From: Pelagibacterales bacterium MED-G40
GTDB taxonomy: Bacteria; Pseudomonadota; Alphaproteobacteria; Pelagibacterales; Pelagibacteraceae
Direction of reading: 5' to 3'
Assembly: GCA_002457515.1 (NCBI GenBank)
Contig: NTJN01000003.1
Coordinates: forward strand, 62,001-126,000
DNA: 64,000 nt
Below the pieces are notes generated by a model. It made no database searches, had not been told where the DNA came from, and saw only the letters and a list, made by a program, of their open reading frames with translations. How positions within the stretch are numbered: position 1 is the stretch's first letter; each line of letters begins with the position of its first letter. Shown here in pieces: positions 23,437 to 37,940 of the stretch. The position numbers were made by a program, and so were the translations under genes.

Positions 23437-25293
23437 ATGGCTGAAAAACTAATTACAAAATCATTTGAAAGACTTCTTGATAAAGGAATCAATAGAGGTT
23501 TTATAACTTACGAAGAGTTAGGCAAGTCGCTTGGAAAAAGAGGCGGTTCTGTTGAAAATACTGAAAAGGCATTTGTTATCATAGCAGATAAAAGCGTCAC
23601 TCTTGTTGAAAAAAAATCTCAATTTCAAAGCAATAAAAAAAAGGAAGCTACCAATACTTCAGAAGATAAATCATCGGATAAAAGTGATGATCCTATTAGA
23701 ATGTATTTGAGAGAGATGGGTGGTGTAGAGCTACTTTCTCGAGAAGGTGAAATCGCCATAGCAAAAAGAATAGAGGCTGGGAAAGATGTTATGATAAACG
23801 CTTTAACACAAAGTCCTTTAATTGCAAAAAAAATCTATGAATGGAAAGAAAAATTAGAAAATAACGAACTTTTAGTAAGAGATATTATCGATATAGACTC
23901 TACATATGAAGATTTTGAAGAGTCTGAAAATGCAAATGAAGAAAAATCATCAAAGGAAGAAAAATCAAAGAAAAATAATGAGCAGGATGAAAAAAAGACC
24001 GAAGAGGCAAGTACTGAAGATGATGAATTTAATGTATCTCTGGCGAAGATGGAAGAAGAAATAAAGCCTAAAATTGTAAATATTATTGATACTCTTAGTA
24101 AAAATTATTCAAAACTTCAAAAATATCAGAGAGAGAAATTAAATTGTCTACTAGCTTCTAAAGATCTTTCAGTTTCTAAAAATAAAAACTTTAAAAGAAT
24201 ACAGTCAGTTTTAGTAGAAAATTTTAAAAGCTTACAGTTAGCTCCATATATTGTTGAGGAATTAGTACAATCTCATTACAAAGAAAATAAAAGAATAGTC
24301 TCTTTAGAAGGAGTTTTATTAAGATTAGCAGTAGATAATAAAATTAGTAGAGAAGAATTTTTAAAATATTATATAGGAAATGAAATAAACCCTAAATTTG
24401 AAAGTTTTTTAGCAGAAAATTCAACCTGGAAAGCTTTTTTTAAAAAATTTAAAAAAGATTTTAAAGAAATAAGAGATAGGTTAGTTGAGTTTAGTGAAAA
24501 AATTGGGCTATCAGTTGGTGAGTTTAAAAGATTAGTAAGCAGAATCCAAAAAGGAGAAAGAGAATCTCGCATCGCTAAAAAAGAAATGGTGGAAGCTAAT
24601 TTACGATTAGTAATTTCTATAGCAAAAAAATATACTAATAGGGGTCTTCAGTTTCTAGATTTAATTCAGGAGGGAAACATTGGATTAATGAAAGCCGTAG
24701 ATAAATTTGAATATCGTCGTGGTTATAAATTCAGTACATATGCGACGTGGTGGATTCGGCAAGCTATTACTAGATCTATAGCTGACCAAGCAAGAACAAT
24801 TAGGATACCTGTCCACATGATAGAAACAATAAATAAAATAGTTAGAACTCAAAGACAAATAATGAGTGAATTTGGAAGAGAACCAACTCCAGAAGAACTA
24901 GCTAAAAAATTAGCAATGCCTTTAGAAAAAGTTCGTAAAGTCTTAAAAATTGCTAAAGAGCCTGTTTCATTAGAAACTCCTGTAGGAGACGAAGAAGATA
25001 GTAGTTTGGGTGATTTTATTGAAGATAAAAATGCTTTACAGCCTTTGGACACTGCAATTCAATCAAATCTTAGTGAGTCTACAACTAAAATATTAGCTTC
25101 ATTAACACCTAGAGAAGAGAGAGTTTTAAGAATGAGATTTGGAATAGGTATGAATACAGACCATACTTTAGAAGAAGTTGGACTTCAGTTTTCAGTTACC
25201 AGAGAGAGAATAAGACAAATAGAGGCTAAAGCTTTAAGAAAACTTAAACACCCGAGTCGTTCTAAACAATTAAAAAGCTTCCTAGAGAAATAA
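23437..25293 (+). CDS. rpoD: RNA polymerase primary sigma factor RpoD (sigma70)
   Basis: A 618-residue housekeeping sigma factor. Region 1.1 is at the N-terminus ([19 protein letters not shown]), region 1.2 includes [20 protein letters not shown], and an acidic, low-complexity spacer runs around residues 165-200. Regions 2.1-2.4 ([40 protein letters not shown]), 3 ([13 protein letters not shown]) and 4 ([35 protein letters not shown]) are all present. It recognises -35/-10 promoters of the kind seen ahead of the tRNA, rnpB and mraZ in this window. It is the last core gene before the accessory island. Confidence 0.97.
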
Positions 25294-25327
25294 ATTATAC
25301 TGTTATAAAAGATTAAATATTTTTTAA

Positions 25328-25356
25328 TTGAAAAAATAATTAAAATTTGATAATAT
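25328..25356 (+). promoter_or_regulatory. Sigma70-type promoter for the leader RNA/island operon
   Basis: TTGAAA (25328-25333), 17-bp spacer, TAATAT (25351-25356). Transcription would begin around 25362-25364, leaving about 270 nt before the first ATG at 25631. The spacing is ideal and the hexamers are one or two changes from consensus. Confidence 0.6.
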
Positions 25357-25362
25357 GTTTTT

Positions 25363-25600
25363 AGGTAAGGTTTAAATGTTGTTGAAGGCAAGATATATAC
25401 ATGAACCTTACTGACCAGTGTATATTTCCTGCCTTCAGTAGTGCATTGCCGACCTTTTAAGAGATAGAACTAATTGTTTTATCTTAACTTAATTGGAATA
25501 GATGTACGCAATCTATAAATCTTTTTGCCTAAAACTAACAACTAAGAACGAAAGTTCTAAGGGGTAAAATATATGGTCAGTAAAATAGACAGATTTATCT
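25363..25600 (+). ncRNA. Candidate structured RNA or long structured 5' leader with a pseudoknot
   Basis: This stretch after rpoD has no convincing ORF but strong base-pairing potential. A hairpin pairs 25384-25390 (GAAGGCA) with 25430-25436 (TGCCTTC) and 25393-25400 with 25418-25425 (8 bp, one G-U). Its loop carries AACCTTAC (25404-25411), perfectly complementary to GTAAGGTT (25365-25372), which would form a pseudoknot. Further hairpins lie at 25461-25485 (9-bp stem), 25498-25516 (6-bp stem, ATAGAT/ATCTAT) and 25545-25558 (AGAAC-GAAA-GTTCT tetraloop). GGTCAGTAA at 25575-25583 can also pair with the loop (25408-25416), so two folds may compete. It matches no RNA family I can name; it could be an sRNA, a cis-regulatory leader or both. 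Confidence 0.5.
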
Positions 25601-25630
25601 TTTTTGAGCTTAACGTTCAGAAAGGTAAAT

Positions 25631-25900
25631 ATGAAGATCAAAAAATTAAGAAAAATAAAATCGCTCACAGATCACGAAAAGCTTATTAATTTAATAGCAG
25701 TTCAGGGCGAGAAAGACGTTGGTGAGTTGCTCAGTTCAATAGATAGAGTCTTTATTGAATTATTTAATCTTAAAGAGTCCGAACTTCCCTGGTTAAACAC
25801 TAATACTGACAAAGAGTGGGACGATTTCATGAGAAAATCACGCCTAGCTTTTTATCGTATTTATTTTGAATTAATTCAAAAAGGAAGGGTTCTTCATTAA
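25631..25900 (+). CDS. Hypothetical protein (89 residues)
   Basis: I do not recognise this family. From ATG at 25631, preceded by AAAGG at 25621-25625 with a 5-nt gap, it encodes 89 residues: a basic start (MKIKKLRKIKSL) then a helical, mixed-charge body (LINLIAVQGEKDVGELLSSI, ELPWLNTNTDKEWDDF, RLAFYRIYFELIQKG). No membrane segment or signal peptide is seen. The frame extends to a TTG at 25604 but the Shine-Dalgarno favours the ATG. Its stop overlaps the next ATG (TAATG), placing it first in a tightly packed plus-strand gene string. Confidence 0.6.
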   Translation: MKIKKLRKIKSLTDHEKLINLIAVQGEKDVGELLSSIDRVFIELFNLKESELPWLNTNTDKEWDDFMRKSRLAFYRIYFELIQKGRVLH

Positions 25901-26061
25901 TGGATAAAATAACAGAAATTAGAATAGAAGAGATTTTCGATGAAGAAAATGATCAACACTATTATTGGATTTACTATTATAAAAATGATGAAGCAAAAAT
26001 CATAGGTAAATCCTCAGTTAAACCACAATGCTACAAACAAATTGCGAGGTACATTAAATGA
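25900..26061 (+). CDS. Hypothetical small protein (53 residues)
   Basis: A short gene filling the gap between two other small genes. ATG at 25900 overlaps the previous stop by one base, and its TGA (26059-26061) overlaps the next ATG (26058) in an ATGA junction. The product starts MDKITEIRIEEIFDEEND, has an aromatic patch (HYYWIYYYKNDEAK), and ends KPQCYKQIARYIK. The fold is unknown; alternating charged and aromatic residues suggest a small beta-sheet. The exact stop/start overlaps on both sides are the main argument that it is translated. Confidence 0.55.
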   Translation: MDKITEIRIEEIFDEENDQHYYWIYYYKNDEAKIIGKSSVKPQCYKQIARYIK

Positions 26062-26330
26062 AAAACTATTTTAAAAATAAAATGAGAGATCGACTAACTT
26101 ACTGCCATGAGTGGAAGAATTCGGTAGATATTTATTTGGCTAATCAAGAAATAACTAAAAAAGCTGATGAAGAATACTATAAATCAAAGCCTTTACTTAA
26201 GTTGATTTTAAATATCTACTTTATACCCTATAATATACTTAGATTTTTTTTATATTTAAGAATGATTCATGAATACAAAAAAAATCAAGTTGAAATAAAA
26301 ATTCTTAATAGAGAAATTGGTGAAAAATAA
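26058..26330 (+). CDS. Hypothetical protein with one membrane-like hydrophobic segment
   Basis: This 90-residue protein is of unknown family. The N-terminal half is charged (KNYFKNKMRDRLTYCHEWKN); residues 45-68 are hydrophobic and aromatic (LLKLILNIYFIPYNILRFFL), enough for one membrane segment or an amphipathic membrane anchor, followed by a charged helical tail. It overlaps the 53-residue gene by 4 bp and the following nuclease gene by 11-14 bp, so it belongs to the same translational chain. No function can be assigned. Confidence 0.55.
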   Translation: MKNYFKNKMRDRLTYCHEWKNSVDIYLANQEITKKADEEYYKSKPLLKLILNIYFIPYNILRFFLYLRMIHEYKKNQVEIKILNREIGEK

Positions 26331-27834
26331 AAATTATAGCTTAACAAAAAGTAGTATTATAAGTGGTGACCAGTGTGAAAAAAAACTTTGGTTTGATATT
26401 AATGAACCCAAAAAATTTGAACAAAAAGCTAATTTTTTAAGAGGTTATCGCTTCGAAGATGAGGTCAGAAAAATTTATGCTAAAGATCAAAAAGTTTTAG
26501 ATTTATCGCCCAAAAAAGAAAAATGGATAAAACCTAAAGAAAGAACTGAACAAGCTATTAATTCTAAAGAAATAAATGTTATTTTTGAAGGTGTATTCAT
26601 TTTTTTAGATACTTATATAAGAACAGATATTTTAATTAGAAAAAATAAAGGATGGGAACTTTTAGAAATAAAGTCATCAGGAGAACAAAAAAATTATCAT
26701 ATAACAGATTTAGCAATTCAATCTTATATTCTTAAGAAGATGGGTATTAATTTAACTAGCGTTAAATTAATTCATATTAATAAAAATTTTATTTTTAAAA
26801 CTGAAGGAGATTATAAAGATTTACCTGTAGAGGTTGATGTTACTAGTAAAGTTGTTGAAAAAGAAAAAGAAATACCAGGTCTAATTAAAAAATTATTACC
26901 TATAACCAAAAAATCACCCTGTCCTAATATAAAAATGGGAGATCATTGCAAAAAACCTTTTGATTGTGATTATATAGATAAATGTAAACCTAAATCAAAT
27001 ATAATTTCTTATGAAATTTTGCCTGGAAGAATAAAAGGCACAAAACTAGAAAAACACTGTAAAGCAAATGGAATTAAAAAATTAGAAGATGTGCCTGCAG
27101 AACTATTAAACGAGAATCGAAAAATTATTCAAGACTGTCATAAAAAAAACATAACTTGGTTTGGTCCAAATCTAAACAACATCATTAAAGATTTAAGTTG
27201 GCCAATTTATTTTATGGACTTCGAAACAGTAATGCAGGGAGTTCCCAAAATAAAGGGAACAAAACCTTACATCCCTTTGCCTTTTCAGTGGTCGGTGCAC
27301 AAATGGTCATCCTTGGACAAAAAAATCAAGTTAAATGATGCAAATTCATTTTTAGATTTTTTGGATCAAAATATAGAAAGAAAATTTGCTGAAAGTCTCT
27401 TAAATGAACTAGGTGATGAAGGATCTATATTTATTCATTCTCCTTACGAAAAGAAAGTTTTAGATAGGTTAAAGAAAAAAGATAGCTGTAAAGATTTAGT
27501 AAATAAAATTGATAAATTAGACGCAAGAATATTGGATACTTTAGAAATTGTTAGAAAAGAATTTTATGATCCAAACATGAATGGTCAATATAAAATAAAA
27601 GTAATTAATAAAGTTATACCAAATAGCGATATTAATTATGAAAAGAAAGATAATATAGTAAGCGGTGAAGATGCTGAATTAGCTTGGTTTATTTACACAG
27701 ATCCTAAAACTCCTAAAGAAGAGAAAAAAAAACAAAAAAAACTTTTAATAGATTACTGCTCCAAAGATACATTTGCTGTATATTATTTGGTAAAATATTT
27801 AATGGAAAAGTCAAAAAAAAATAAAAAAAAATAA
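26320..27834 (+). CDS. DUF2779-type protein: Cas4/RecB-like nuclease plus DEDD-type exonuclease-like domain
   Basis: About 504 residues. The N-terminal part (LTKSSIISGDQCEKKLWFDI, then GWELLEIKSSGE) resembles the PD-(D/E)xK core of Cas4/RecB-like nucleases. A Cys cluster follows (CPNIKMGDHCKK, FDCDYIDKC) of the kind that binds an Fe-S cluster or zinc. The C-terminal part has YFMDFETVMQGVP, PFQWSVHKW and DYCSKDTFAVYYLVKYL, the DFE...YC-x-D pattern of DnaQ-like 3'-5' exonucleases. This arrangement is that of DUF2779 proteins, whose function is not established. GTG at 26320 is taken as start (TTG at 26317 is adjacent). It precedes the DUF2130-type gene by 10 bp. Confidence 0.75.
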   Translation: MKNKNYSLTKSSIISGDQCEKKLWFDINEPKKFEQKANFLRGYRFEDEVRKIYAKDQKVLDLSPKKEKWIKPKERTEQAINSKEINVIFEGVFIFLDTYIRTDILIRKNKGWELLEIKSSGEQKNYHITDLAIQSYILKKMGINLTSVKLIHINKNFIFKTEGDYKDLPVEVDVTSKVVEKEKEIPGLIKKLLPITKKSPCPNIKMGDHCKKPFDCDYIDKCKPKSNIISYEILPGRIKGTKLEKHCKANGIKKLEDVPAELLNENRKIIQDCHKKNITWFGPNLNNIIKDLSWPIYFMDFETVMQGVPKIKGTKPYIPLPFQWSVHKWSSLDKKIKLNDANSFLDFLDQNIERKFAESLLNELGDEGSIFIHSPYEKKVLDRLKKKDSCKDLVNKIDKLDARILDTLEIVRKEFYDPNMNGQYKIKVINKVIPNSDINYEKKDNIVSGEDAELAWFIYTDPKTPKEEKKKQKKLLIDYCSKDTFAVYYLVKYLMEKSKKNKKK

Positions 27835-27844
27835 GGAAAATTAA

Positions 27845-28918
27845 ATGACTCCAAAAATAACCTGTCCTTACTGCAATAAAGAGTTTCAAATGGAAGAAGG
27901 TCTTTCTATTCATTTAAAAAAAATTGAGGAAAAAAAAACTCAAGAAATTGAAAAAAAGCAAGAAGAGAAGATAAAATCTTTAGAAACTTCTAACAGAGAG
28001 AACCAAGACAAACTAAAATCCTTAGAAGATGCTAATAAGGAAAAAGATGAAAAACTAAAATCATCAAATGAACAAAAAGAAAAAGAATTAAAAGCTTTTG
28101 ATAAACAAAATAAAGAGCACTACAAAAGTCTTTTTGATGAAAGATTTAAAAGTGAATTAGAAAACCGAGATCAGCAAAATTCTGAAAAAGAAAAATTATG
28201 GAAATTAAAAGAAGAAAGATTGATTTTAACAATTGAGGATCTTACAAAAAAAGCAAAACAAGGGACCACCGTTGACCAAGGATCCTCTTCAGAGATGCAG
28301 TTAGGAGAATATTTAAAGGATTTATTTAAAGATAAAAAAGACAAAATTAATGAGTATGAAAAAGGTGTAGCTGGTGGGGATTGGTTACAAGAAGTTGTTG
28401 AGAATGATTTTACAATTGCAAAAATATTATATGAAAGAAAAAATACTAAAGCATGGAGCAATGGTTGGATAAAAAAACTACAAGATGATATGAAAGACTC
28501 TAAGTCAGATGTGGGTATCATTTTCACAAAATCGCTGCCAAAAGAATTTCCTAAAAACAAATTGTGGGATCACAAAGGAAATATTTTTATATGTAAATAT
28601 AATTTCATAGCACTTAATGCTTTAGCCTCTATGCAGAGATGGAATTTGGCAGAAAAAAATAAACAAGATGAATTTGGTACTAGTAATGTCATATCTGCTA
28701 CTAAATGGATTGAAAGCCCAATTATAACTAATATTTTAATGCAAAAAATAAATATATCTGAACAAAAAAATCAAAAATTTAAATTACTTAAAAAAAATTT
28801 AGAAGATGTAGAGAAGCTAGATGAAAGCTCAGATAATATTTTTAAAGAGTTGCTTGATGAAATAAATAAAATTGGAGTAGCAGCATTTATAGAAAAATGG
28901 AAAAAGAAAAAAAATTAA
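27845..28918 (+). CDS. DUF2130-type protein: zinc motif, coiled coil, nuclease-like domain
   Basis: A 357-residue protein in three parts. A short N-terminal zinc-binding motif (CPYCNKEF with a following His23) is followed by a highly charged coiled coil at about residues 25-115. The C-terminal domain has SSEMQLGEYLKDLFKDK, YEKGVAGGDWLQEV, ILYERKNTKAWSNGWIKKLQ and SDVGIIFTKSLP, as in DUF2130. The ExK within YERKNTK and the preceding acidic residues suggest a restriction-endonuclease-like PD-(D/E)xK site. Function is not established. It starts 10 bp after the DUF2779 gene; a 58-residue gene follows. Confidence 0.78.
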   Translation: MTPKITCPYCNKEFQMEEGLSIHLKKIEEKKTQEIEKKQEEKIKSLETSNRENQDKLKSLEDANKEKDEKLKSSNEQKEKELKAFDKQNKEHYKSLFDERFKSELENRDQQNSEKEKLWKLKEERLILTIEDLTKKAKQGTTVDQGSSSEMQLGEYLKDLFKDKKDKINEYEKGVAGGDWLQEVVENDFTIAKILYERKNTKAWSNGWIKKLQDDMKDSKSDVGIIFTKSLPKEFPKNKLWDHKGNIFICKYNFIALNALASMQRWNLAEKNKQDEFGTSNVISATKWIESPIITNILMQKINISEQKNQKFKLLKKNLEDVEKLDESSDNIFKELLDEINKIGVAAFIEKWKKKKN

Positions 28919-28925
28919 AAATAAT

Positions 28926-29102
28926 ATGGATAAAAAAGATAGAAATAAATGGACAAATAAATTTAGGGAAATGGGAAAGAAAAAAGGTTCCAGGCAAGAT
29001 TTTGTTAATCTTTACAAAGAAATGAAAAAAGAAAAAGATAATAAAAAAAATGATAGTTCTAAATCTGAAAATGATAAAAGCTGGAAAGATCTAATAGAAT
29101 AA
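28926..29102 (+). CDS. Hypothetical small basic protein (58 residues)
   Basis: A short ORF in the gap between the DUF2130-type gene and the M48 peptidase gene. ATG at 28926 lies 7 bp after the preceding stop, and TAA at 29100-29102 lies 17 bp before the next ATG. The product is rich in lysine, with MDKKDRNKWTNKFREMGKKK at the start, FVNLYKEMKKEKDNKK in the middle and KSWKDLIE at the end. The central part could be one amphipathic helix. No family is recognised; tight packing and same-strand context support it, but composition alone does not. Confidence 0.45.
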   Translation: MDKKDRNKWTNKFREMGKKKGSRQDFVNLYKEMKKEKDNKKNDSSKSENDKSWKDLIE

Positions 29103-29119
29103 AAAGTACTAAAATAAAA

Positions 29120-30250
29120 ATGAATTTTTTAGATAGATTTAGGTATACCTACGATGATTTGAATGAACTAGGAATTGTTCAAAATAATAAAAACGATACA
29201 AAAAATTTTAATAATCAAAACCTAAGAAACTTGCTATCAAGTTCAGTCAAAGTGAGTGAAAACTTATTTCCAAAGATTGCAAGTTCCATAGAAAAAGTTT
29301 TTAAAAGACTTGGTGTTAAAAATAACTTTAATTTCTTTATCACTGCAAATCATATTGAAACTCAAGCAGCTTGTGCAATGATGCCCCAAAGTTTAAATGC
29401 AGAAATAATTATTACCTCAAAAATGGTTGAGTTGTTAAATGCAGGTGAACTAGAGAGTGTTATTGCCCATGAGATTTCTCATTTTTATTATCAACACAGT
29501 CTTTATCCACCTATTCAAAAAGCAAGGACTAGAAATGAATATCTTAATTTTCTTAATTTAAGTAGGGCCGCAGAAATATCAGCTGATCGTGCTGGTTTAT
29601 TAGGCTCAGGGAGCATTGAAAATTCTCTTAGAGCAATGCTGAAGATATCTACAGGTCTTAGTGATGAGCATATATCTTTTAATTTTAGTTCTTATTTAGA
29701 TCAATTGAGAGAATTAAAAGAGTTACAAGGAAATAAAAACTTACTTTATGCTACTCATCCAACATTTCTTAATCGAATGCAGGCCTTGATATGGTTTTCA
29801 ATGAGCAATGAATACAACGAATTTTTTAAAACAGACAAGAAAGGTGTCTATGATTTGAAAGTGGTTGATAAGAAGATTGATGAAAGTATAAAAAAAGTAA
29901 CTGGAAATGAATTAGATAACTCTAATAAAGAAATAATTAATAAAGCTTTATTATGGGGCTCATTAAGTATTTATCTTGCAGATAAAAAATTTTCTAAAGA
30001 TGAACAAGAAAAATTCAAAAAGAGATTTGGAGAAAAAGCAGCGGTAAGTATAAAAAGTCTTTTGAATATATCAAAAATGTCTGTAGTAGAAAAAAGAATT
30101 GAAAATGCCTTTAACGAAGCCAAAATTTTGATGAAATCTGATAAAAAAAAAATAATATCTACCTTGAAAGAAATATTTGCAGAATCAGATAATCACAACA
30201 AGGATGCAAGTTCTATTTTAAAAAAATTAATCGATACGATTAAATTGTAG
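29120..30250 (+). CDS. Cytosolic M48-family metallopeptidase with TerB-like C-terminal segment
   Basis: A 376-residue zinc protease candidate. The zinc motif HEISH is at residues 117-121 inside ESVIAHEISHFYYQHS; the third ligand is Glu152 in the AAEISADRAGL block, as in M48 peptidases. Unlike HtpX, Oma1 or BepA there is no signal peptide and no obvious membrane segment, so it probably acts in the cytoplasm. The C-terminal hundred residues include IYLADKKFSKDEQEKFKKRF, similar to the acidic helical pattern of TerB/DjlA-type domains. It converges with the 879-residue PDZ/TerB/J-like gene (4 bp between stops). It may process substrates delivered by the neighbouring Hsp70; this is inference. Confidence 0.75.
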   Translation: MNFLDRFRYTYDDLNELGIVQNNKNDTKNFNNQNLRNLLSSSVKVSENLFPKIASSIEKVFKRLGVKNNFNFFITANHIETQAACAMMPQSLNAEIIITSKMVELLNAGELESVIAHEISHFYYQHSLYPPIQKARTRNEYLNFLNLSRAAEISADRAGLLGSGSIENSLRAMLKISTGLSDEHISFNFSSYLDQLRELKELQGNKNLLYATHPTFLNRMQALIWFSMSNEYNEFFKTDKKGVYDLKVVDKKIDESIKKVTGNELDNSNKEIINKALLWGSLSIYLADKKFSKDEQEKFKKRFGEKAAVSIKSLLNISKMSVVEKRIENAFNEAKILMKSDKKKIISTLKEIFAESDNHNKDASSILKKLIDTIKL

Positions 30251-30254
30251 TAAA

Positions 30255-32894
30255 TTATTTATTATATTGAGATCTTAAACTTGCAGCCAAATCTCTCATT
30301 TCTTTAGCTCTTTCTCTAATCATTTTATCAGTATTATTTGTTAAAGCATTCCATCTACTATATTCTTTTCTTAAAATTTTAAGTTTCTCGTTTTTAGTCA
30401 TATCTTTATCAATCCCAAACACACTTTCTTCTACCCCTTCACCAAAATCAACAAATTTTACAGATGAAGTTTTTTGTTTTTTAATTTCTTGATATTTCTC
30501 TTTATTTAATTCAAGTTCTTTTGAAACTTTGTCTATGAATTTATTTTCTTTACTATTAAAAGTTTCATCTTTTGTTGCTAGATTAAGTAAAAAATCTATT
30601 ATTTCATACCTCTCGTGTATTACAGAATTTTTCTTTAAGTCTTTTAAAATATTGTCTAAATTTAATTTTTCATTCAAAGATTTTTCATAATTTCTTTTCA
30701 AACTAAGTATTTTATGTATTTTTCCCTCAACAGCATAATCACCATATTTCACTGAAGCATAATCACCATATCTCACTGAGTCTTTAATTTTTTCTAAATT
30801 AGCTTTCTGATTATTTTTGTCATCTTGGTTTAAAGCTAAGCTTAAAGCAATTTTAAGATCGTTATATTTACGTCTATTAATTTCTAAGTATCCTGGCTGT
30901 TTATATTCAACTTCTATTTCAGATGATGAATAAGATAAAATATCTGTATAATCATTGTACTCATCAAATCCGTCCGAATAACTATCTAAAAAATACTCTT
31001 CTGCTCTGAAATTAGGCTTATCGTTAGAAATAAATCTTCCGTTGTTTTCATCAAATTTTTGATTATCGGTACAAATAAAAGTTCTAAAAGATAGTTTTCT
31101 TTTTCCATATTTTGGTATTTGTAATTTTGAGTAAGGAAAGGCTAATTCGCTAGGGTGAGATCCATAAGATTCTAATTCTTTGGTTTGAACTAAAATTCCG
31201 TTACCTTCTGACCATGACAAATCCTCTGTTTTAACTACATGACTATTATTGAGGAAATATTGTTCTGTGTCTTCACCATTGTCTAGAGTCTTAAAGTACT
31301 TGTCCTCATCTAAATCCGTTACATCATAAATATAAATTTTAAGATAAATTTTTTGCCCTCTAATAATATGATTTTCTATTTCTTCCTCGTTAGGTAAATT
31401 ATTTAATTTAACCACAAATGATTCTTTTCCAGCTATTTTCTTTTTATTAACACTGGTTGAAATATAAATTTTATCTTGGTAATCGGAATCATAATCATAT
31501 CCATCATCTTCTGGTTCATCTTGAAGATCCAATTTTTTAATTTCTTTTATTCTCTCAATATTAAAATCAGGATATTCTAAAAAAAAGCTTTTACAAAAAT
31601 CATCTACTGCTAGTTTTACTTTTGCTTTATTAAATTTATATTTTGATTCAAACCAATATTCTAAATTTTTTGCAATATCTGCAAAGCCTCGAGCTGATTC
31701 AGTAGAGAGTTCTGCTTTTTTTTTATTTGAAAATTTCCAAAACTTCTTATCTGATTCATATTTGATAAAAATATTTTTTTTTTTATCAACCATTTCATTA
31801 AAAAAAAAGTTTAAGGATGCCTCTGAAATTTCATCGACAAATACTTCCTTTTTTTTATCTTTGACAGAAATTAATTTTTCAAAGTTTTTAATATTTGCAG
31901 GAACATCTTTAACCCAATCTCCGCCAACAGCTTTTCCTGTTAAAATATATGAATAACAACACTCCTTTTTTAAATTTAGACTTCTTAATTTTGAAATAAT
32001 TTTTGAATTAAAAATCAAACTAAAAAAATTAAGTTTGAAATTGATATCTTTGTATTCAGGTTTTAATAAGCTGGTAAGTAGTTTGGCATCTTTATTTTTC
32101 CAATCTTTTATATAGTCAGAATTATAAGTATATCTTGCATCAGAAAAACGTTCTGCAATCGTCTCTAATTTCATAATATCTTCTTTTCTTTTATTCCAAT
32201 CATCATGATTACGTCCGTAATCTGTTAAAACCCATTCTTTAAATAATAATGAACCAGCTTTTTTTAAATAATGATCATCAATTGATTTTTTACTGATCGC
32301 TACAGCCTGCACAGCATTAATAAGTTTTAGTTTTACTTTAATTTCACCTAGTTGTTTTTTTTTGATCTTAAATTCTACATTATTCCCTGGTTTATATTTT
32401 GAAGTTATTTTTCCAAAATCAAATTCTGATGAAATTTTTTCTGAATCTATTGATAATAAGATATCCCCATCTTCTACTGAATTATCAAAATCTGGATATT
32501 CAAAAGCATTTTTTTCAATTAATACTAAATTATTTTTCACTTTTACATGACAAGGCCAATTTATAGAATTTTTTTGAAAATTATGAAAAGAGATTGTTTT
32601 TATTTTAACTTTTTCAATTTTATTTGATCTTTTTACTTCAAATAATACTTCATTTCCCCAATCTATTTTATTTGTCTCAAAATCTAAATCACCAATTGTT
32701 TTAATTTCAATGTTATTAATGGATAATATTAGGTCTCCTACTAATAATTTTTTATCCGAAATACTTCCTGCTTGGACAAAATTTATTAGAGGTTTCGACG
32801 TATTTCTATGTTCGTTTCTAGCATCAAATCCAACATCAAAACGAACAATGTGTTGAAGCCTCTGTACAAATTTTCTTTTTTTTTTTACTGCCAC
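30255..32894 (-). CDS. Large protein with PDZ-like repeats, TerB-like domain and HPD-less J-like C-terminus
   Basis: An 879-residue protein without signal peptide or membrane segments. The N-terminal 200 residues contain two PDZ-like units (VGDLILSINNIEIKTIGDLD, EDGDILLSIDSEKI). A long middle region is unrecognised, with acidic tyrosine-rich stretches and an 8-residue tandem repeat at residues 706-721. Residues about 757-822 (FLLNLATKDETFNSKENKFI) resemble a TerB-like helical domain. The last 57 residues look like a J-domain: VFGIDKDMTKNEKLKILRKE, then Y-S-R-W-N, and a final helix ending AASLRSQY. The HPD tripeptide needed to stimulate Hsp70 reads NNT. The gene is 6 bp downstream of hsp70, so it is the likely co-chaperone. 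Overall architecture is unfamiliar to me. Confidence 0.65.
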   Translation of the reverse strand: MAVKKKRKFVQRLQHIVRFDVGFDARNEHRNTSKPLINFVQAGSISDKKLLVGDLILSINNIEIKTIGDLDFETNKIDWGNEVLFEVKRSNKIEKVKIKTISFHNFQKNSINWPCHVKVKNNLVLIEKNAFEYPDFDNSVEDGDILLSIDSEKISSEFDFGKITSKYKPGNNVEFKIKKKQLGEIKVKLKLINAVQAVAISKKSIDDHYLKKAGSLLFKEWVLTDYGRNHDDWNKRKEDIMKLETIAERFSDARYTYNSDYIKDWKNKDAKLLTSLLKPEYKDINFKLNFFSLIFNSKIISKLRSLNLKKECCYSYILTGKAVGGDWVKDVPANIKNFEKLISVKDKKKEVFVDEISEASLNFFFNEMVDKKKNIFIKYESDKKFWKFSNKKKAELSTESARGFADIAKNLEYWFESKYKFNKAKVKLAVDDFCKSFFLEYPDFNIERIKEIKKLDLQDEPEDDGYDYDSDYQDKIYISTSVNKKKIAGKESFVVKLNNLPNEEEIENHIIRGQKIYLKIYIYDVTDLDEDKYFKTLDNGEDTEQYFLNNSHVVKTEDLSWSEGNGILVQTKELESYGSHPSELAFPYSKLQIPKYGKRKLSFRTFICTDNQKFDENNGRFISNDKPNFRAEEYFLDSYSDGFDEYNDYTDILSYSSSEIEVEYKQPGYLEINRRKYNDLKIALSLALNQDDKNNQKANLEKIKDSVRYGDYASVKYGDYAVEGKIHKILSLKRNYEKSLNEKLNLDNILKDLKKNSVIHERYEIIDFLLNLATKDETFNSKENKFIDKVSKELELNKEKYQEIKKQKTSSVKFVDFGEGVEESVFGIDKDMTKNEKLKILRKEYSRWNALTNNTDKMIRERAKEMRDLAASLRSQYNK
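30732..30779 (-). repeat. 24-bp tandem duplication inside the PDZ/TerB/J-like gene
   Basis: Two adjacent 24-bp copies (30732-30755 and 30756-30779) differ at one position. They encode SVRYGDYA and SVKYGDYA in the 879-residue protein. The frame is preserved. Confidence 0.85.
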
Positions 32895-32900
32895 AAATAT

Positions 32901-34448
32901 CTACTCAATTACTATATGTTCGATAGCTTCATAGTTTTTTCTTAAATCTTCCGCAGACTCTGGTCTAATAGACACTTCATATTTTTCCTTTGTTGCCTCA
33001 TCCTCAAAAATACAGTGAAGTTTTCCAGATGTGTCATACTTGTAGGTTACATTGATAGGTCTACCTTTAGGCTTTTTGTCGGGAAATTTTAATTCACCTT
33101 GGTGAATAATATTTACAAATTCTCTATTTTTTTCTCTTCCTTCACTTTGAGTAATATCAATCGAGATAGATTCTTGATCATCATAGAGAGTCACTAATCT
33201 TGAACTTTTCGTTGCTGGCAAAGCGGTGTCGCGATCTATCAAAATTAAATTACTAGTAACTTGTCTATTCAAAACAGGGTCGTCTTCTTGAACTAACGTT
33301 CCTAAATAAAAATTACAAACATCTTGAAGTTTAACATTTGAAATTGCTTTTTTTTGTGCCTCATTTAAATTTTTCTTTGATTTTAAACCTGCATAAATTG
33401 CAGCACCTGCGGCTACAGCCTCATCAACGTTTACACCTTTCAATGGAGGCTTTTTCATAACCTGTTCAATAGTTTTTGTTATAATTGGTATTCTAGTTGA
33501 TCCACCAACTAGTAAAGTATGACTAATATTTTCGGCTTTTAATCCACTGCCATCAAGAGCTTCTTCCATAAGCATTTTAAGTTTTTCAATGTGCGTTTGC
33601 ATTGATTGTTCAAATTCTGCTCTTGTAATTTCTATTTCCTTTACACCATTAGGTCCATCGACTGATTCTATTTGTTTATCTCTAACTGACAAAACTCTTT
33701 TTACTTGTTCAGCTATCTCCATATACTTAGAATAATTATTATCGATATCTAATTCATTTCCAGTTAGTTTTTTATATTTTTCATTTATTAAATTAACCAA
33801 TTCTTTGTCAAAGTCTTTACCACCAAGCCACTTATCACCTCTACTAGTTATTACTTCAACTTCTTCACCTTGCACTTCGCAAACAGTTACATCAAATGTT
33901 CCACCCCCTAAATCAAATACTAAAATTTTACCTGTAATTTTTTTTACATTTGGCAGACTTGCATAATAACAAGCAGCAGCAGTTGGTTCATTGATTAAAC
34001 TTATAACTTCAATTCCTGCCATTTTTGCTGCATCTAAAGTGGCCACTCTTGCTTTTTCAGCAAATAATGCTGGAACAGTTATAACTGCTTTTTTAACATC
34101 AGATGCATAGCCTTTAAGTTTCGATAATATAAAAGAAGAAATTTGAGCTGGAGAGTAATAATCTTTATTTTTTTCATCTTTATCTACCCATTTTCCCTCA
34201 TCAATTGAGTAAACCACATCATTTTCCATTTGCCTTTTAGTTTCAGTAACAACTTGTTTTGGAGCTGTTTCCAAAGCATCAAGAGCCTTATCACCAACAA
34301 TCATATTTTGATCTTTTATATAAACAGAACTTGCTGTGATTTTTTTATTATTATCCGTAGATGCTAATACCTCTGGTGTACCTAAATCATCTAATTGTGC
34401 AATCGCACTATAAGTAGTTCCTAGATCTATGCCAATAATTTTACTCAT
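32901..34448 (-). CDS. Hsp70-family chaperone without the C-terminal lid
   Basis: A 515-residue Hsp70 homologue from ATG at 34448. The actin-like ATPase domain has IGIDLGTTYSAIA, INEPTAAACYYA, VFDLGGGTFDVTV and LLVGGSTRIP. The substrate-binding beta domain is present but the protein ends near IRPESAEDLRKNYEAIEHIV, about 120 residues short of DnaK, so the alpha-helical lid is missing. This is therefore not the housekeeping DnaK but a specialised paralogue. It is followed after 6 bp by the PDZ/TerB/J-like gene, and divergent from the LRR-like gene across 54 bp. The track frame extends to TTG at 34460; the ATG fits the Hsp70 N-terminus. Confidence 0.9.
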   Translation of the reverse strand: MSKIIGIDLGTTYSAIAQLDDLGTPEVLASTDNNKKITASSVYIKDQNMIVGDKALDALETAPKQVVTETKRQMENDVVYSIDEGKWVDKDEKNKDYYSPAQISSFILSKLKGYASDVKKAVITVPALFAEKARVATLDAAKMAGIEVISLINEPTAAACYYASLPNVKKITGKILVFDLGGGTFDVTVCEVQGEEVEVITSRGDKWLGGKDFDKELVNLINEKYKKLTGNELDIDNNYSKYMEIAEQVKRVLSVRDKQIESVDGPNGVKEIEITRAEFEQSMQTHIEKLKMLMEEALDGSGLKAENISHTLLVGGSTRIPIITKTIEQVMKKPPLKGVNVDEAVAAGAAIYAGLKSKKNLNEAQKKAISNVKLQDVCNFYLGTLVQEDDPVLNRQVTSNLILIDRDTALPATKSSRLVTLYDDQESISIDITQSEGREKNREFVNIIHQGELKFPDKKPKGRPINVTYKYDTSGKLHCIFEDEATKEKYEVSIRPESAEDLRKNYEAIEHIVIE

Positions 34449-34477
34449 TTTATATTTCAAATTTCGTCAAAATAATA

Positions 34478-34492
34478 ATATCCTACGGATAT
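34478..34492. promoter_or_regulatory. Inverted repeat in the hsp70/LRR divergent promoter region
   Basis: ATATCC (34478-34483), TAC, GGATAT (34487-34492): a perfect 6-bp inverted repeat with a 3-bp centre, sitting in the 54 bp between the two divergent start codons. It could be an operator for a dimeric regulator controlling both genes, or a small hairpin in the LRR leader. No regulator is encoded next to it. Confidence 0.4.
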
Positions 34493-34502
34493 AAGGTAAC
34501 TC

Positions 34503-37500
34503 ATGAATAATGAAGATACAAACAAATTATCAAATTTAGACATATTAAATACCAAGTGTAATTTTAAAATATTAGAATTAGAGGGTTTAAATTTAGATGA
34601 TGATTGGTCAAAATTATCTAAAGTTAAAAATTTAGAAACACTAATACTTAAAGATAGTTACATAGATTTTAAGAAATTTTATAATGCAATTTTTTCCTTA
34701 AAAAAATTAAATAAATTAAAATTAAATCATTATTGTTATTTCAATAAATCTAAAAATGATAAGTTTGAAAAAAATTTAAAACTTTCTTCTTTAAAAGAAT
34801 TTTGTCTAGAATTTCCAAGATCGGATGAACCAGATTTTGAAATAAATACTTATTTGCATAAAAGTTATGAAAACAAACATAATTCAATCACCGATGTCCC
34901 AAATAGCCATACTATGTTTCCTAACTTAGAGGTCATTAAATTATTAAATTATGAAACTTATAAGAAAAGAATACTTGATGAAGATGAAGATAATAAAAAA
35001 ATACATAAAGAAATTTATTGGAATACAAAATTAAATGATCTTAAACGCTTTAAAAAATTAAAGAATATAGTCATCGATAATGGAAATGTGAGCGATTTAT
35101 ATATAAACGGATTAGATCATTTCATAAAAATCTTAGAAAAACAAAAAATTAATCTTACTATAAATAATATAAATAATACGTCAAAATTAAATCTTGACTT
35201 TAAAACTGTAAATTTTTTTTGTGGTTATAAAGGTGACAAAACTAATCTTTGTTTTAAATTAGATAATGAATTTTTAAATATTTTGAAAGAAAATAATATA
35301 ATTATTGATAAAAATGTTTTTAATATCAATGAATTTCATTATTACAAAGACCCCTATAAGTATGACAAACCTTATGTAATCAACAAAAATAAAAATTATG
35401 AAGAAGTTATCAAATCAAATCCAACTTGTTTTATCTTTAAATCATGTTTTAGATTTTTACATATTAGTAATTCTGGATCTAGTAGAGGACAAAAATTAGA
35501 TGCAATGGAACATCTATTTAAAAATCAAAACAAGTTGGAAAAAATTATTTTTGATTTATCTAGAAATGATAAATATGACGGTGATGAAGATTGGCACGCT
35601 AATCAAATAAGTTTTTTAGTAAAATTTATATATGAATTTAGATTAAATAATAAAGATACCCAAATATTTATTTATCATCCTGAAATTAAAAAGTTACTCA
35701 ATGAAAAAGATAGTTCAGACAGTTTCAAAATTCATTTAATTTATCTTTATAATTCTCTTAAAATTAACAATTTAAAAGATAAACTCACGATATTAGGCGC
35801 GAACGATGAACAATTAGATTTATTAACGGATAAATTTATAAATGAAAATGTTAATCAGGTGGTAGTTATAGATGATATTTTTTATAATAAATCTAGCTAT
35901 TTTCCAGATAAAACATTTATAAATAATGATCAACTAGATGATTTAAAAAGTCATTATCCAAAATATATAAATGATGATGATAAAAAATGGTCTAAATTAA
36001 ATCATTTATTTAAATATGTATACGAAGAGATAATAAGAATAATTGACTTTTCAGATAGTGACTTTAAGCCAGATAAAAATAGTTTAATTCTAGTAATCAA
36101 AAAAACTGCAATAGACAAAATTCCAAATATAAATTTAAAAAAGATATATATTTATTCTGGTGCTTCATTACATCATGTTGCCCAACAAATGAATCATACT
36201 GAAAAAAATTGGAATGCAAAAAAAATTGTAGGAAAGTTAGTAAATAATAATGAAGAGGGAATAAATAAGATAAAAGATAAGTTATTTTCTGTTGCAACAA
36301 ATATAAGCGAAAGCTTTGTTTCATCGAATGACTTTAAAGGCAGTAATTTATCTAAAGAAGACTTTTTGAAACCTGCAGAGTTCAATGAGATAGTAGAGAA
36401 TACAAATATTAAACATGAAAAAATTAAAAGCTTAACGCATTGTTGGATTGAGGGTGTCAACCCATGGCAAGAAAAATACATAAAATTAAGTGAATTTGAT
36501 AAATTTATACCTATTGATAACTTAGAGTATTTAAAACTAAGCGATTGTTTACAAAGTGAAAATTTAGACTTACCTCATTTTCCAAAATTAAAAATTCTTA
36601 AAATGAAATTTTTTCAAAATCATCACAGAAAATCTTTAGATAAGGTAACATTATCAAAATTTGATAACTGCCCTAATCTTCAAAAAATTGAAATAAGTGA
36701 TTTGGAAAATTTCTATAATAAAGGATTATTTAAACATACACTAGGTTTTTCAGGATATTCGACTAATTTACATTATATCGATACTTGGTCTTATATAAAT
36801 GTAGATCTTTCAAAACTTCACCAATTAAAAAAGTTAGAGCAAGTAACTATTACTTCAATAACAGCTTCTGATTTAAAGGAGCTTAAATCTGTTGAAAATT
36901 TAAAAAAGATTAATCTGGGGGTTATGCATTTTAACAAAGATGATTATAAAAGTACTTATGAACCTCAAAAAGAAATTTGTGATCAAGATTTGTCTTTTTT
37001 TAAAAATTGCAAAAAAATTGAAGATATTAATTTAAGACTTGGAGACCCAAATTATAAAGGTGAATCATTTGGGAATATATCATCTAGTTATAAAGGAAAT
37101 GGTGAATTTATAAATTTTATAAATCATAAAATTAAAAAACTAAAATTAAATGTAAATCTGGATATTAAAAACCAAGCTACTATTCAAGATATAATAAATA
37201 ATATTACCAACAGGTTTTTATCATTAGAGGAACTTAATTTAAGTTTTAGTATTGCTGCTAGAGCAAAATATTTTGACTCTGAAAAAGGATATACTCAAAA
37301 AATCGATACACAAATTATAGATTTTAAGAAAATTGCTAAGTTAAAAAAACTAAAAAATCTTAATATACAGCATTATGGTGAGTCCCTTTATATTCCGTTT
37401 AAATCAGTAAATTTTGATGAGGTAATCAAACTAAAATTGATTAAGGATTTAGCCATAATGTGGAATTCAGTGAGTTTTTCTGAATTCAGGAAAGCCAGAA

Positions 37501-37724
37501 TTGCTTTTAAAAAAGAAAAATATGACAATCCTATATACTACGATGAATACATAGAGGATTATGAAGAAGATAGTGATTACCGAAAAAATTGGAATAGAAT
37601 GGAGCACATTAATACGGAAGATTGGGACTTTTATAGCTTAGAATCAAAATATCTAGATCTTGAAAAAAGGGAAAATAAAAAAAAATATGAAAAGAAACTG
37701 ATTATTAAAAAAAAAAATAGTTAA
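34503..37724 (+). CDS. Giant leucine-rich-repeat-like protein
   Basis: A 1073-residue protein with LRR-like units at both ends. N-terminal examples are FKILELEGLNLDDDWSKL and NLETLILKDSYIDFKKF; C-terminal examples are NLEYLKLSDCLQSENLDL, KLKILKMKF, NLQKIEISDL, LSLEELNLSFSIA and KLKNLNIQHYGESLYIP. The repeats are irregular and asparagine/lysine-rich. The central part (about residues 320-660) is not obviously LRR and contains DEDWHANQISFLVKFIYEF and LKKIYIYSGASLHHVAQQM; I recognise no enzyme motif. No signal peptide is visible, so it is probably intracellular. It is divergent from hsp70, with which it shares its upstream region. LRRs usually bind proteins; a recognition or scaffold role is inference. 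Confidence 0.6.
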   Translation: MNNEDTNKLSNLDILNTKCNFKILELEGLNLDDDWSKLSKVKNLETLILKDSYIDFKKFYNAIFSLKKLNKLKLNHYCYFNKSKNDKFEKNLKLSSLKEFCLEFPRSDEPDFEINTYLHKSYENKHNSITDVPNSHTMFPNLEVIKLLNYETYKKRILDEDEDNKKIHKEIYWNTKLNDLKRFKKLKNIVIDNGNVSDLYINGLDHFIKILEKQKINLTINNINNTSKLNLDFKTVNFFCGYKGDKTNLCFKLDNEFLNILKENNIIIDKNVFNINEFHYYKDPYKYDKPYVINKNKNYEEVIKSNPTCFIFKSCFRFLHISNSGSSRGQKLDAMEHLFKNQNKLEKIIFDLSRNDKYDGDEDWHANQISFLVKFIYEFRLNNKDTQIFIYHPEIKKLLNEKDSSDSFKIHLIYLYNSLKINNLKDKLTILGANDEQLDLLTDKFINENVNQVVVIDDIFYNKSSYFPDKTFINNDQLDDLKSHYPKYINDDDKKWSKLNHLFKYVYEEIIRIIDFSDSDFKPDKNSLILVIKKTAIDKIPNINLKKIYIYSGASLHHVAQQMNHTEKNWNAKKIVGKLVNNNEEGINKIKDKLFSVATNISESFVSSNDFKGSNLSKEDFLKPAEFNEIVENTNIKHEKIKSLTHCWIEGVNPWQEKYIKLSEFDKFIPIDNLEYLKLSDCLQSENLDLPHFPKLKILKMKFFQNHHRKSLDKVTLSKFDNCPNLQKIEISDLENFYNKGLFKHTLGFSGYSTNLHYIDTWSYINVDLSKLHQLKKLEQVTITSITASDLKELKSVENLKKINLGVMHFNKDDYKSTYEPQKEICDQDLSFFKNCKKIEDINLRLGDPNYKGESFGNISSSYKGNGEFINFINHKIKKLKLNVNLDIKNQATIQDIINNITNRFLSLEELNLSFSIAARAKYFDSEKGYTQKIDTQIIDFKKIAKLKKLKNLNIQHYGESLYIPFKSVNFDEVIKLKLIKDLAIMWNSVSFSEFRKARIAFKKEKYDNPIYYDEYIEDYEEDSDYRKNWNRMEHINTEDWDFYSLESKYLDLEKRENKKKYEKKLIIKKKNS

Positions 37725-37768
37725 AAAATAAATCTTTTATAAATCAGAATTATGCCAAATTAATACAG

Positions 37769-37786
37769 CACTTATAGCTATAAGTG
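37769..37786. repeat. 18-bp perfect palindrome at the right end of the island
   Basis: CACTTATAG followed directly by CTATAAGTG, 45 bp after the LRR-like gene stop. As RNA it could form a 7-bp stem with an AGCT loop, but no T-run follows, so it is not a standard intrinsic terminator. It may be a protein-binding site or a processing hairpin. Confidence 0.6.
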
Positions 37787-37820
37787 TTCACAAATAAAAC
37801 TTAAGATTGAAATTGATGAT

Positions 37821-37849
37821 TTGAGTTTTGATAAAAAGGCTTGTATATA
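37821..37849 (+). promoter_or_regulatory. Sigma70-type promoter of the tRNA gene
   Basis: TTGAGT (37821-37826), 17-bp spacer, TATATA (37844-37849). The expected start site near 37856 is 8 bp before the mature tRNA 5' end. Confidence 0.6.
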
Positions 37850-37863
37850 TTGAAATTATCAAG

Positions 37864-37940
37864 GGGCCTGTAGCTCAGCTGGTTAGAGCAGTACACTCAT
37901 AATGTATTGGTCCCAGGTTCGAATCCTGGCGGGCCCACCA
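37864..37940 (+). tRNA. tRNA with CAU anticodon (elongator tRNA-Met or tRNA-Ile2)
   Basis: A complete 77-nt cloverleaf. The 7-bp acceptor stem pairs GGGCCTG (37864-37870) with CGGGCCC, followed by discriminator A and an encoded CCA (37938-37940). The D arm is AGCTCAGCTGGTTAGAGC, the anticodon loop is CTCATAA with CAT at 37898-37900, and the T arm is CCAGG-TTCGAAT-CCTGG. The anticodon stem (GTACA/TGTAT) lacks the three G-C pairs of initiators, so it is not tRNA-fMet. Sequence alone does not tell me whether the C34 is lysidinylated (Ile2). The 3' end directly abuts the mlaC stop. Confidence 0.95.

Follow-up and report, generated by a model that had tools for sequence, protein, structure and literature searches.

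A structured leader RNA with alternative loop pairings heads an exchangeable nuclease operon in a SAR11 genomic island: a candidate translational switch

Genomic context of the leader

The window analyzed here is a 64,000-nt stretch of a SAR11 genome (Pelagibacteraceae; 911,758 bases in eight contigs), and all coordinates are counted within it. The rpoD gene ends at 25293, and a tRNA-Met(CAT) gene lies at 37864-37940. In the corresponding loci of 30 relatives, this tRNA is found 26 to 56 nt past rpoD in 16 and ≈0.9 kb past it in two; in the other 12 it is absent from the 1.1 to 1.5 kb fetched past rpoD, and other genes lie between. Because the rpoD-tRNA spacing varies in this manner, we interpret the 12.5 kb at 25294-37863 as an island at a hypervariable rpoD/tRNA-Met site, of which the leader RNA would form the left edge. 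A first-pass annotation of this DNA had described the RNA as lying downstream of rpoD, which is correct for the window. The RpoD C terminus was seen in only 2 of the 10 loci that hold other copies (loci cut at various lengths), suggesting that adjacency to rpoD belongs to the island site and not to the RNA. Insertion by a tRNA-directed integrase was considered as well and rejected, as the left edge of the island and the tRNA region have no repeat of at least 10 nt in common.

The left part of the island holds the following features:

25328..25356, plus strand: sigma-70-type promoter, TTGAAA-17-TAATAT, with a predicted RNA start at ≈25363
25573..25689, plus strand: ORF A, a 38-codon leader peptide whose last 59 nt lie within gene B
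25631..25900, plus strand: gene B, 89 aa, the first full gene of the operon, without a Pfam or PADLOC match
25900..26061, plus strand: gene C, a small protein of 53 aa with relatives in 25 further genomes among 169 searched in the genus
26058..26330, plus strand: gene D, a small protein of 90 aa with relatives in 18 further genomes among 169 searched in the genus
26317..27834, plus strand: nuclease gene, Cas4-like domain and DUF2779, replaced by PD-(D/E)XK genes in other copies
27845..28918, plus strand: DUF2130 protein

Genes B, C, and D and the nuclease gene overlap end to start, and translational coupling can therefore carry on along the operon. The structure model of gene B is poor (mean pLDDT of 54). 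Farther downstream in the island are an M48 peptidase, a PDZ/TerB protein, and others. The segment at 32901-37724 includes an Hsp70-like gene on the minus strand and a 1073-aa leucine-rich protein (names assigned by eye). Families C and D recur in SAR11 near genes that resemble, again by eye, exonuclease I, DNA methyltransferases, and nucleases, and these two families are a possible marker of SAR11 defence islands.

Distribution of the RNA and exchange of its cargo

A protein search with gene B returned five close relatives in SAR11 genomes (L086-L090), all five of which carry the RNA directly upstream, at 145 to 161 bits with R1, a query built from the window alone. The same query found only its own genome among 169 genomes of its genus, two matches in 397 genomes of the family (one of them, L108, new), and eight in 250 genomes of genus g34; these genome draws overlap, and the counts are not additive. 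The matches in g34 comprise three loci identical to those of L087, L088, and L090, the L108 locus, and four divergent copies, L113 (73 bits), L114 (42 bits), L115 (40 bits), and L116 (36 bits). The known copies are thus the window and ten others, all from Pelagibacteraceae, and each of the ten immediately precedes either the operon seen in the window or an equivalent one.

Wider searches added no copies. Among 40 genomes of the order, R2 matched none but the own genome, and in 121 and 81 relatives of two carriers it gave only matches already known; R3 (the 3' part) matched only the window in 40 loci, and BLASTN of the region in 200 relatives gave the window itself and matches shorter than 45 nt, which we take as chance. 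Short matches occurred in 12 phage records, each covering at most 12% of the query; plasmids had zero matches to the region, and the viral contigs contained zero relatives of genes B and C and no exact copy of the RNA motif TTACTGACCAGTGTATAT. Another exact motif, GGTCAGTAAAATAGAC, occurs in two viral contigs (L106 and L107) and was dismissed as chance, the rest of the RNA being missing in both. The RNA therefore appears to be rare and, as far as these searches reach, confined to Pelagibacteraceae.

The genes behind the RNA are exchanged among copies. In L114-L116, gene B is replaced by an unrelated 62-aa gene that is ribbon-helix-helix-like by eye and has no Pfam match. Relatives of this 62-aa protein are found in 43 viral contigs (L124-L166), mostly at 60 to 68% identity over ≈45 residues, and the RNA is absent from all 42 of these loci that were searched with R2. 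Most of the viral loci inspected have a short upstream leader, in which ATATCC can pair with GGATAT at the Shine-Dalgarno sequence. The nuclease is of the Cas4/DUF2779 kind in the window and, as sequence similarity suggests by eye, also in L089 and L113; it is PDDEXK_1 in L086, L088, and L116, and those of L087 and L090 resemble that of L086. Viewed across the copies, the nuclease looks swapped behind an otherwise constant cassette, a DUF2779/Cas4 type in some and one of two PD-(D/E)XK types in others. PADLOC returned only Cas4 and related nuclease matches on the cassette. A role of the cassette in defence is plausible because of such neighbors as the HATPase gene that lies upstream in L089.

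The linkage of the RNA, in the copies examined, to a small-gene operon with a PD-(D/E)XK or Cas4-like nuclease would also fit a guide-like component of a Cas4-like nuclease system instead of a regulator. The RNA persists while nucleases of unlike families replace one another behind it, however, no variable guide segment was seen, and the conserved elements described below coincide with translation signals, such that we give this reading very little credence.

Fold of the leader

The leader spans 25363-25630 (268 nt) and forms the 5' part of the mRNA behind a conserved promoter. The promoter named in the first-pass annotation was found where expected, and a promoter-like site stands at the same distance in 10 of the 11 copies, with 9 to 11 of 12 positions matching, and in weak form (8/12) in L113. 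The folding energy is well below that of shuffled sequences, both for 25363-25600 (z of −4.9) and for 25363-25460 (z of −4.7), with 0 of 200 shuffles equally stable in either case. The predicted elements are as follows:

25363..25530, plus strand: three-way-junction RNA of 168 nt closed by P1, in the minimum-energy, pseudoknot-free fold
25363-25374 paired with 25516-25530, plus strand: helix P1, 12 bp with a 3-nt bulge, in the same minimum-energy fold
25383..25437, plus strand: arm 1, an 18-bp hairpin (8+2+8), stem 25383-25402 with 25418-25437, with a 15-nt loop at 25403-25417
25441..25507, plus strand: arm 2, the variable junction arm, extended and re-arranged in L114-L116
25545..25558, plus strand: H2, a small hairpin, AGAAC-GAAA-GUUCU
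25593..25630, plus strand: H3, a predicted 16-bp hairpin within ORF A that holds the Shine-Dalgarno sequence of gene B

The hairpin that had been noted earlier as 7 + 8 bp is thus real, somewhat longer than described, and only one arm of the junction. Covariation is strong in arm 1. In a set of nine sequences, eight of them distinct, 98.6% of 144 cells are paired, compared with at most 57% in slid versions; both sides have changed in 8 of the 18 pairs, and 0 of 500 shuffles reach the score. H2 is paired in 97.8% of 45 cells (at most 62.2% when slid). H3 is similarly well kept, with 96.5% of 144 cells paired and at most 59.7% when slid, but its pairs are mostly invariant or differ only by G-U, and its covariation fails the shuffle control (107 of 500 shuffles reach the score). 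The P1 duplex can form in all 11 copies at −7.1 to −10.3 kcal/mol, a statement of energy only, as the alignment of its 3' strand is ambiguous. A U run at 25517-25526 follows a weak hairpin at ≈25498-25516 and could be read as a terminator; by eye this arrangement is not kept in other copies, and attenuation was rejected.

Alternative pairings of the arm 1 loop

The first-pass annotation proposed that the loop of this hairpin pairs with a segment just upstream or, alternatively, with one downstream. Both complementarities are exact, between GTAAGGTT at 25365 and AACCTTAC at 25404 in the first case and between TTACTGACC at 25408 and GGTCAGTAA at 25575 in the second. When neighboring bases and G-U pairs are counted, each extends to 10 bp, giving PK1 (25364-25373 with 25403-25412) and PK2 (25408-25417 with 25574-25583), with these strands:

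25364..25373, plus strand: 5' strand of PK1, which has the loop as its partner and competes with P1 for the same 5' strand
25408..25417, plus strand: loop strand of PK2, which shares 25408-25412 with the loop strand of PK1
25574..25583, plus strand: 3' strand of PK2, which covers the AUG and first codons of ORF A

To count compensatory changes, the check suggested with the original proposal, the pieces were aligned by hand on the conserved CUGAC and GUCAG, with the strands kept in one register. PK1 is paired in 96.7% of 90 cells and PK2 in 93.8% of 81, values that fall to at most 60% and 47%, respectively, when the partner strand is slid. Both pairings carry compensatory changes, at one pair in 4 cells for PK1 (with 11 further pair types; 0 of 500 shuffles reach the score) and at two pairs in 5 cells for PK2 (1 of 500), a covariation that rests on ≈4 independent sequence types (the window group of seven, L113, L114/L115, and L116) and few independent events. 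In L114-L116, the 5' strand and the loop are both altered, and PK1 is still 10 bp; it is short in L113, with seven contiguous pairs, and consists elsewhere mostly of A-U and G-U pairs. PK2 is re-formed with 9 to 11 bp in L113, L114/L115 (in a shifted register), and L116, as in the L114 pairing of CUGACUUUAU with AUAAAGUCAG, and reaches 9 to 13 bp in all 11 copies when a register shift is allowed.

In a single sequence, the complementarity of PK1 is weakly improbable, arising in 26 of 1000 shuffles of the window and in 8 to 224 of 1000 across the six sequences tested. That of PK2 is stronger (5 of 1000 for the window and 0 to 19 of 1000 across the six), and conservation in homologs is the main evidence for the pairings. 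In all seven copies computed, the isolated PK2 duplex (−10.5 to −16.4 kcal/mol) is more stable than that of PK1 (−5.0 to −11.2 kcal/mol). P1 and PK2 are compatible with one another, and PK1 excludes both.

A large junction with a closing helix, a pseudoknot beside a translation start, and several near-invariant unpaired stretches are also what a metabolite riboswitch could offer, in which the junction would be an aptamer, a ligand would shift the balance of P1, PK1, and PK2, and the leader peptide would be incidental. The RNA varies most in arm 2 and the junction, however, which is not the pattern of an aptamer core; most of the unpaired letters that are conserved belong to the pairing strands; and the genes behind the RNA are nucleases and small orphan proteins rather than metabolic ones. 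Rfam 15, to which the first-pass annotation had pointed for comparison, gave zero matches at the gathering score in the window, riboswitches and 6S RNA included; with E values up to 10, the region drew only microRNA and CRISPR-repeat matches far below threshold and 6S was again absent, and six other loci returned tRNAs only. Considering these data together, we judge a riboswitch to be unlikely.

A leader peptide over a locked gene start

The leader is close to the 270 nt originally described and not ORF-less, as ORF A begins at 25573, atop the second pairing. The start codon remarked on earlier is indeed near this pairing and is that of the leader peptide rather than of the first island gene itself. 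In the window group, PK2 covers the AUG with the first codons; in the other copies, it falls among codons one to five or six. In all 11 copies, the frame of ORF A is open from a start codon beside PK2 and runs 11 to 59 nt into the next gene, whereas the other two frames across it contain stops. The peptides are related (window, MVSKIDRFIFFELNVQKGKYEDQ; L113, MYIVSRLNRFIFYELHVQKGKDEKQ; L114, MNKVRIYYFIFFELLVRKDKNDR; L116, MYKVSKKNFIFCDPIVRKDRYDRQ), and their length differences ahead of FIF are whole codons. An earlier view from the close copies alone, that ORF A is non-coding, was overturned by the open frame in the divergent copies. Within ORF A, close copies differ more by amino acid-changing than by silent substitutions, and the 3' end is variable, with the L088 stop lying twelve nt earlier. 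Because of these two features, the act of translating ORF A may matter rather than its peptide product; the peptide sequence is not strictly kept, and H3 and PK2 could account for much of the conservation.

The Shine-Dalgarno sequence of ORF A is good in the window (AAGGGG) and weaker in other copies. That of gene B, AGAAAGG (25619-25625), is located inside H3, which is itself inside ORF A, and the region before the gene B start has a predicted paired probability of 0.83 to 0.99 in all 11 copies. Constraint on the leader exceeds that on four-fold sites in gene B (17/265 versus 5/24 in the comparison with L088 and 29/265 versus 7/23 in that with L086).

The element had been called a leader or small RNA, and of the two it appears to be an mRNA leader. 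Its own promoter and the compact, stable fold of 168 nt would suit a discrete, trans-acting small RNA, one that uses the arm 1 loop as an antisense seed and is merely adjacent to the operon. No intrinsic terminator was detected between the RNA and gene B, however, conservation runs unbroken through H2, ORF A, and H3 up to gene B, and a complement of the loop is present in cis in every copy and covaries with it. A free small RNA is therefore improbable.

Proposed mechanism

The conserved helices are mutually exclusive and include translation signals, and the element is probably the 5' leader of an island operon that acts in cis as a translational switch by way of a leader peptide. The structural claim is strong at the level of sequence comparison, and that the leader would switch in the cell is a good inference. 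The regulatory switch envisaged at first pass therefore stands with respect to two mutually exclusive, conserved pairings; a third helix, P1, had gone unseen.

By sequence and comparison, the RNA has a predicted start at ≈25363, and the arm 1 loop can pair either with the 5' terminus, giving PK1, or with the beginning of ORF A, giving PK2, while the 5' terminus can alternatively close the three-way junction through P1. In the model that we propose, these pairings set the state of the operon. The off state would combine P1 and PK2, such that the start of ORF A is covered and gene B stays locked. PK1 would represent the permissive state, in which the loop is drawn away from ORF A and ribosomes can enter it; as they pass through H3 they would free the start of gene B, and gene B, once opened, would bring the coupled genes C and D and the nuclease along. 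As the strands become available during transcription, PK1 could form first, then P1, and then PK2, making off the default end state and P1 with PK2 the likely resting state. Candidate triggers include a protein, a small RNA, or ribosome stalling on ORF A. The RNA persists in L114-L116, where gene B has been replaced, which makes feedback via gene B alone unlikely.

At two other loci (L077, 1165-1320, plus strand; L074, 2062-1925, minus strand), with R2 scores of 26.8 and 22.4 bits, a different, tall hairpin leader precedes a ribbon-helix-helix-like gene, a gene D relative, and an exonuclease I-like gene. The loop of this leader (GGCUUUCUU / GGCUUCCUU) is complementary to the Shine-Dalgarno sequence AAGGAAGC itself. 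It follows the same logic without a leader peptide and is perhaps a distant relative or an analogue.

Comparison with known leaders

The repY-repZ leader of the plasmid ColIb-P9 was reportedly described by Asano and Mizobuchi in 1998. This leader encodes the RepY leader peptide, and a loop of its leader hairpin makes a long-range pseudoknot that sits upstream of the repZ ribosome binding site and is activating. The SAR11 leader resembles it in a loop whose long-range pseudoknot would decide translation, in the leader peptide, and in a locked downstream start. In a published account of this IncI-alpha system, repZ translation needs the pseudoknot, and an antisense RNA blocks pseudoknot formation (PMC8383071). 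PK2 differs in that its target is the very start of the leader peptide, so that it should repress, whereas the repZ pseudoknot activates; the SAR11 leader also has a competing 5' strand (PK1/P1). Measured against leaders of the IncI-alpha/IncB type in general, the SAR11 RNA has a leader ORF that overlaps the regulated gene, a predicted locked Shine-Dalgarno sequence, and a 5' hairpin loop with a pseudoknot near a translation start, here that of the leader peptide; it has neither a commonly placed minus-strand promoter nor a replication initiator gene, none having been found.

These last two points bear on whether the leader is under plasmid-like antisense control, as in IncI-alpha repZ, by an opposite-strand RNA of arm 1 that binds the loop. 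The general anatomy is shared (large-loop hairpin, leader peptide, locked Shine-Dalgarno), and the minus strand of arm 1 folds as a hairpin too. Five of the 11 copies (window, L086, L088, L089, and L090), however, have zero minus-strand promoters with at least 8 matches, those of the other six copies lie at differing places, and no replication gene stands behind the RNA. We consider such control quite improbable.

A 2009 study, reportedly by Meyer et al., searched the genome of Candidatus Pelagibacter ubique HTCC1062 for structured RNAs. Like the present element, the leaders known from that genome belong to the same bacterial group and are 5'-UTR RNAs, some of them pseudoknotted near start codons. 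The part of that source consulted names leaders of rpsB and rpsL and a pseudoknotted methionine-biosynthesis motif and contains nothing like the SAR11 island RNA (PMC2704228); the Rfam families had no match here.

In the genomic island SGI1, the leader peptide S004 overlaps repA, a stem-loop masks the repA Shine-Dalgarno sequence and start, and translation of S004 in cis is required for repA (PMC7826253). A genomic island, an overlapping leader ORF, and a masked start opened by leader translation are thus shared with our model, whereas the SGI1 leader regulates replication, and the portion available mentions no long-range loop pairing (PMC7826253). In Escherichia coli, translation of the toiL uORF of topAI-yjhQ alters an RNA structure by which the following ribosome binding site is occluded; its trigger is ribosome stalling in the uORF, and competing long-range helices go unmentioned in the abstract (PMC12121999).

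The open-licence literature on SAR11 RNAs, leader peptides, and coupling, in the parts consulted, does not describe the element. It appears to be a genuine and undescribed RNA family that shares the logic of known leaders, not their membership features. Translational control through a leader peptide and alternative long-range pairings is known as a general kind; competition among three helices is unusual.

Implications

SAR11 bacteria, which rank among the most abundant bacteria of the sea, possess few protein regulators. In this setting, a compact RNA control with three competing helices, kept across divergent copies, would head an exchangeable nuclease cassette. The RNA seems to be passed on as a unit of its own, which persists when the first gene and the nuclease are swapped. 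More tentatively, and with some doubt on our part, P1, PK1, and PK2, vying for one 5' strand and one loop, could constitute an undescribed class of three-way switch that silences a SAR11 anti-phage or anti-mobile-element nuclease cassette until infection or stress perturbs translation of the leader peptide, the cassette swapping its nucleases and first genes and keeping the switch. The leader offers a testable model for the silencing of hypervariable islands and may represent a chromosomal counterpart to the leader-peptide control of plasmids.
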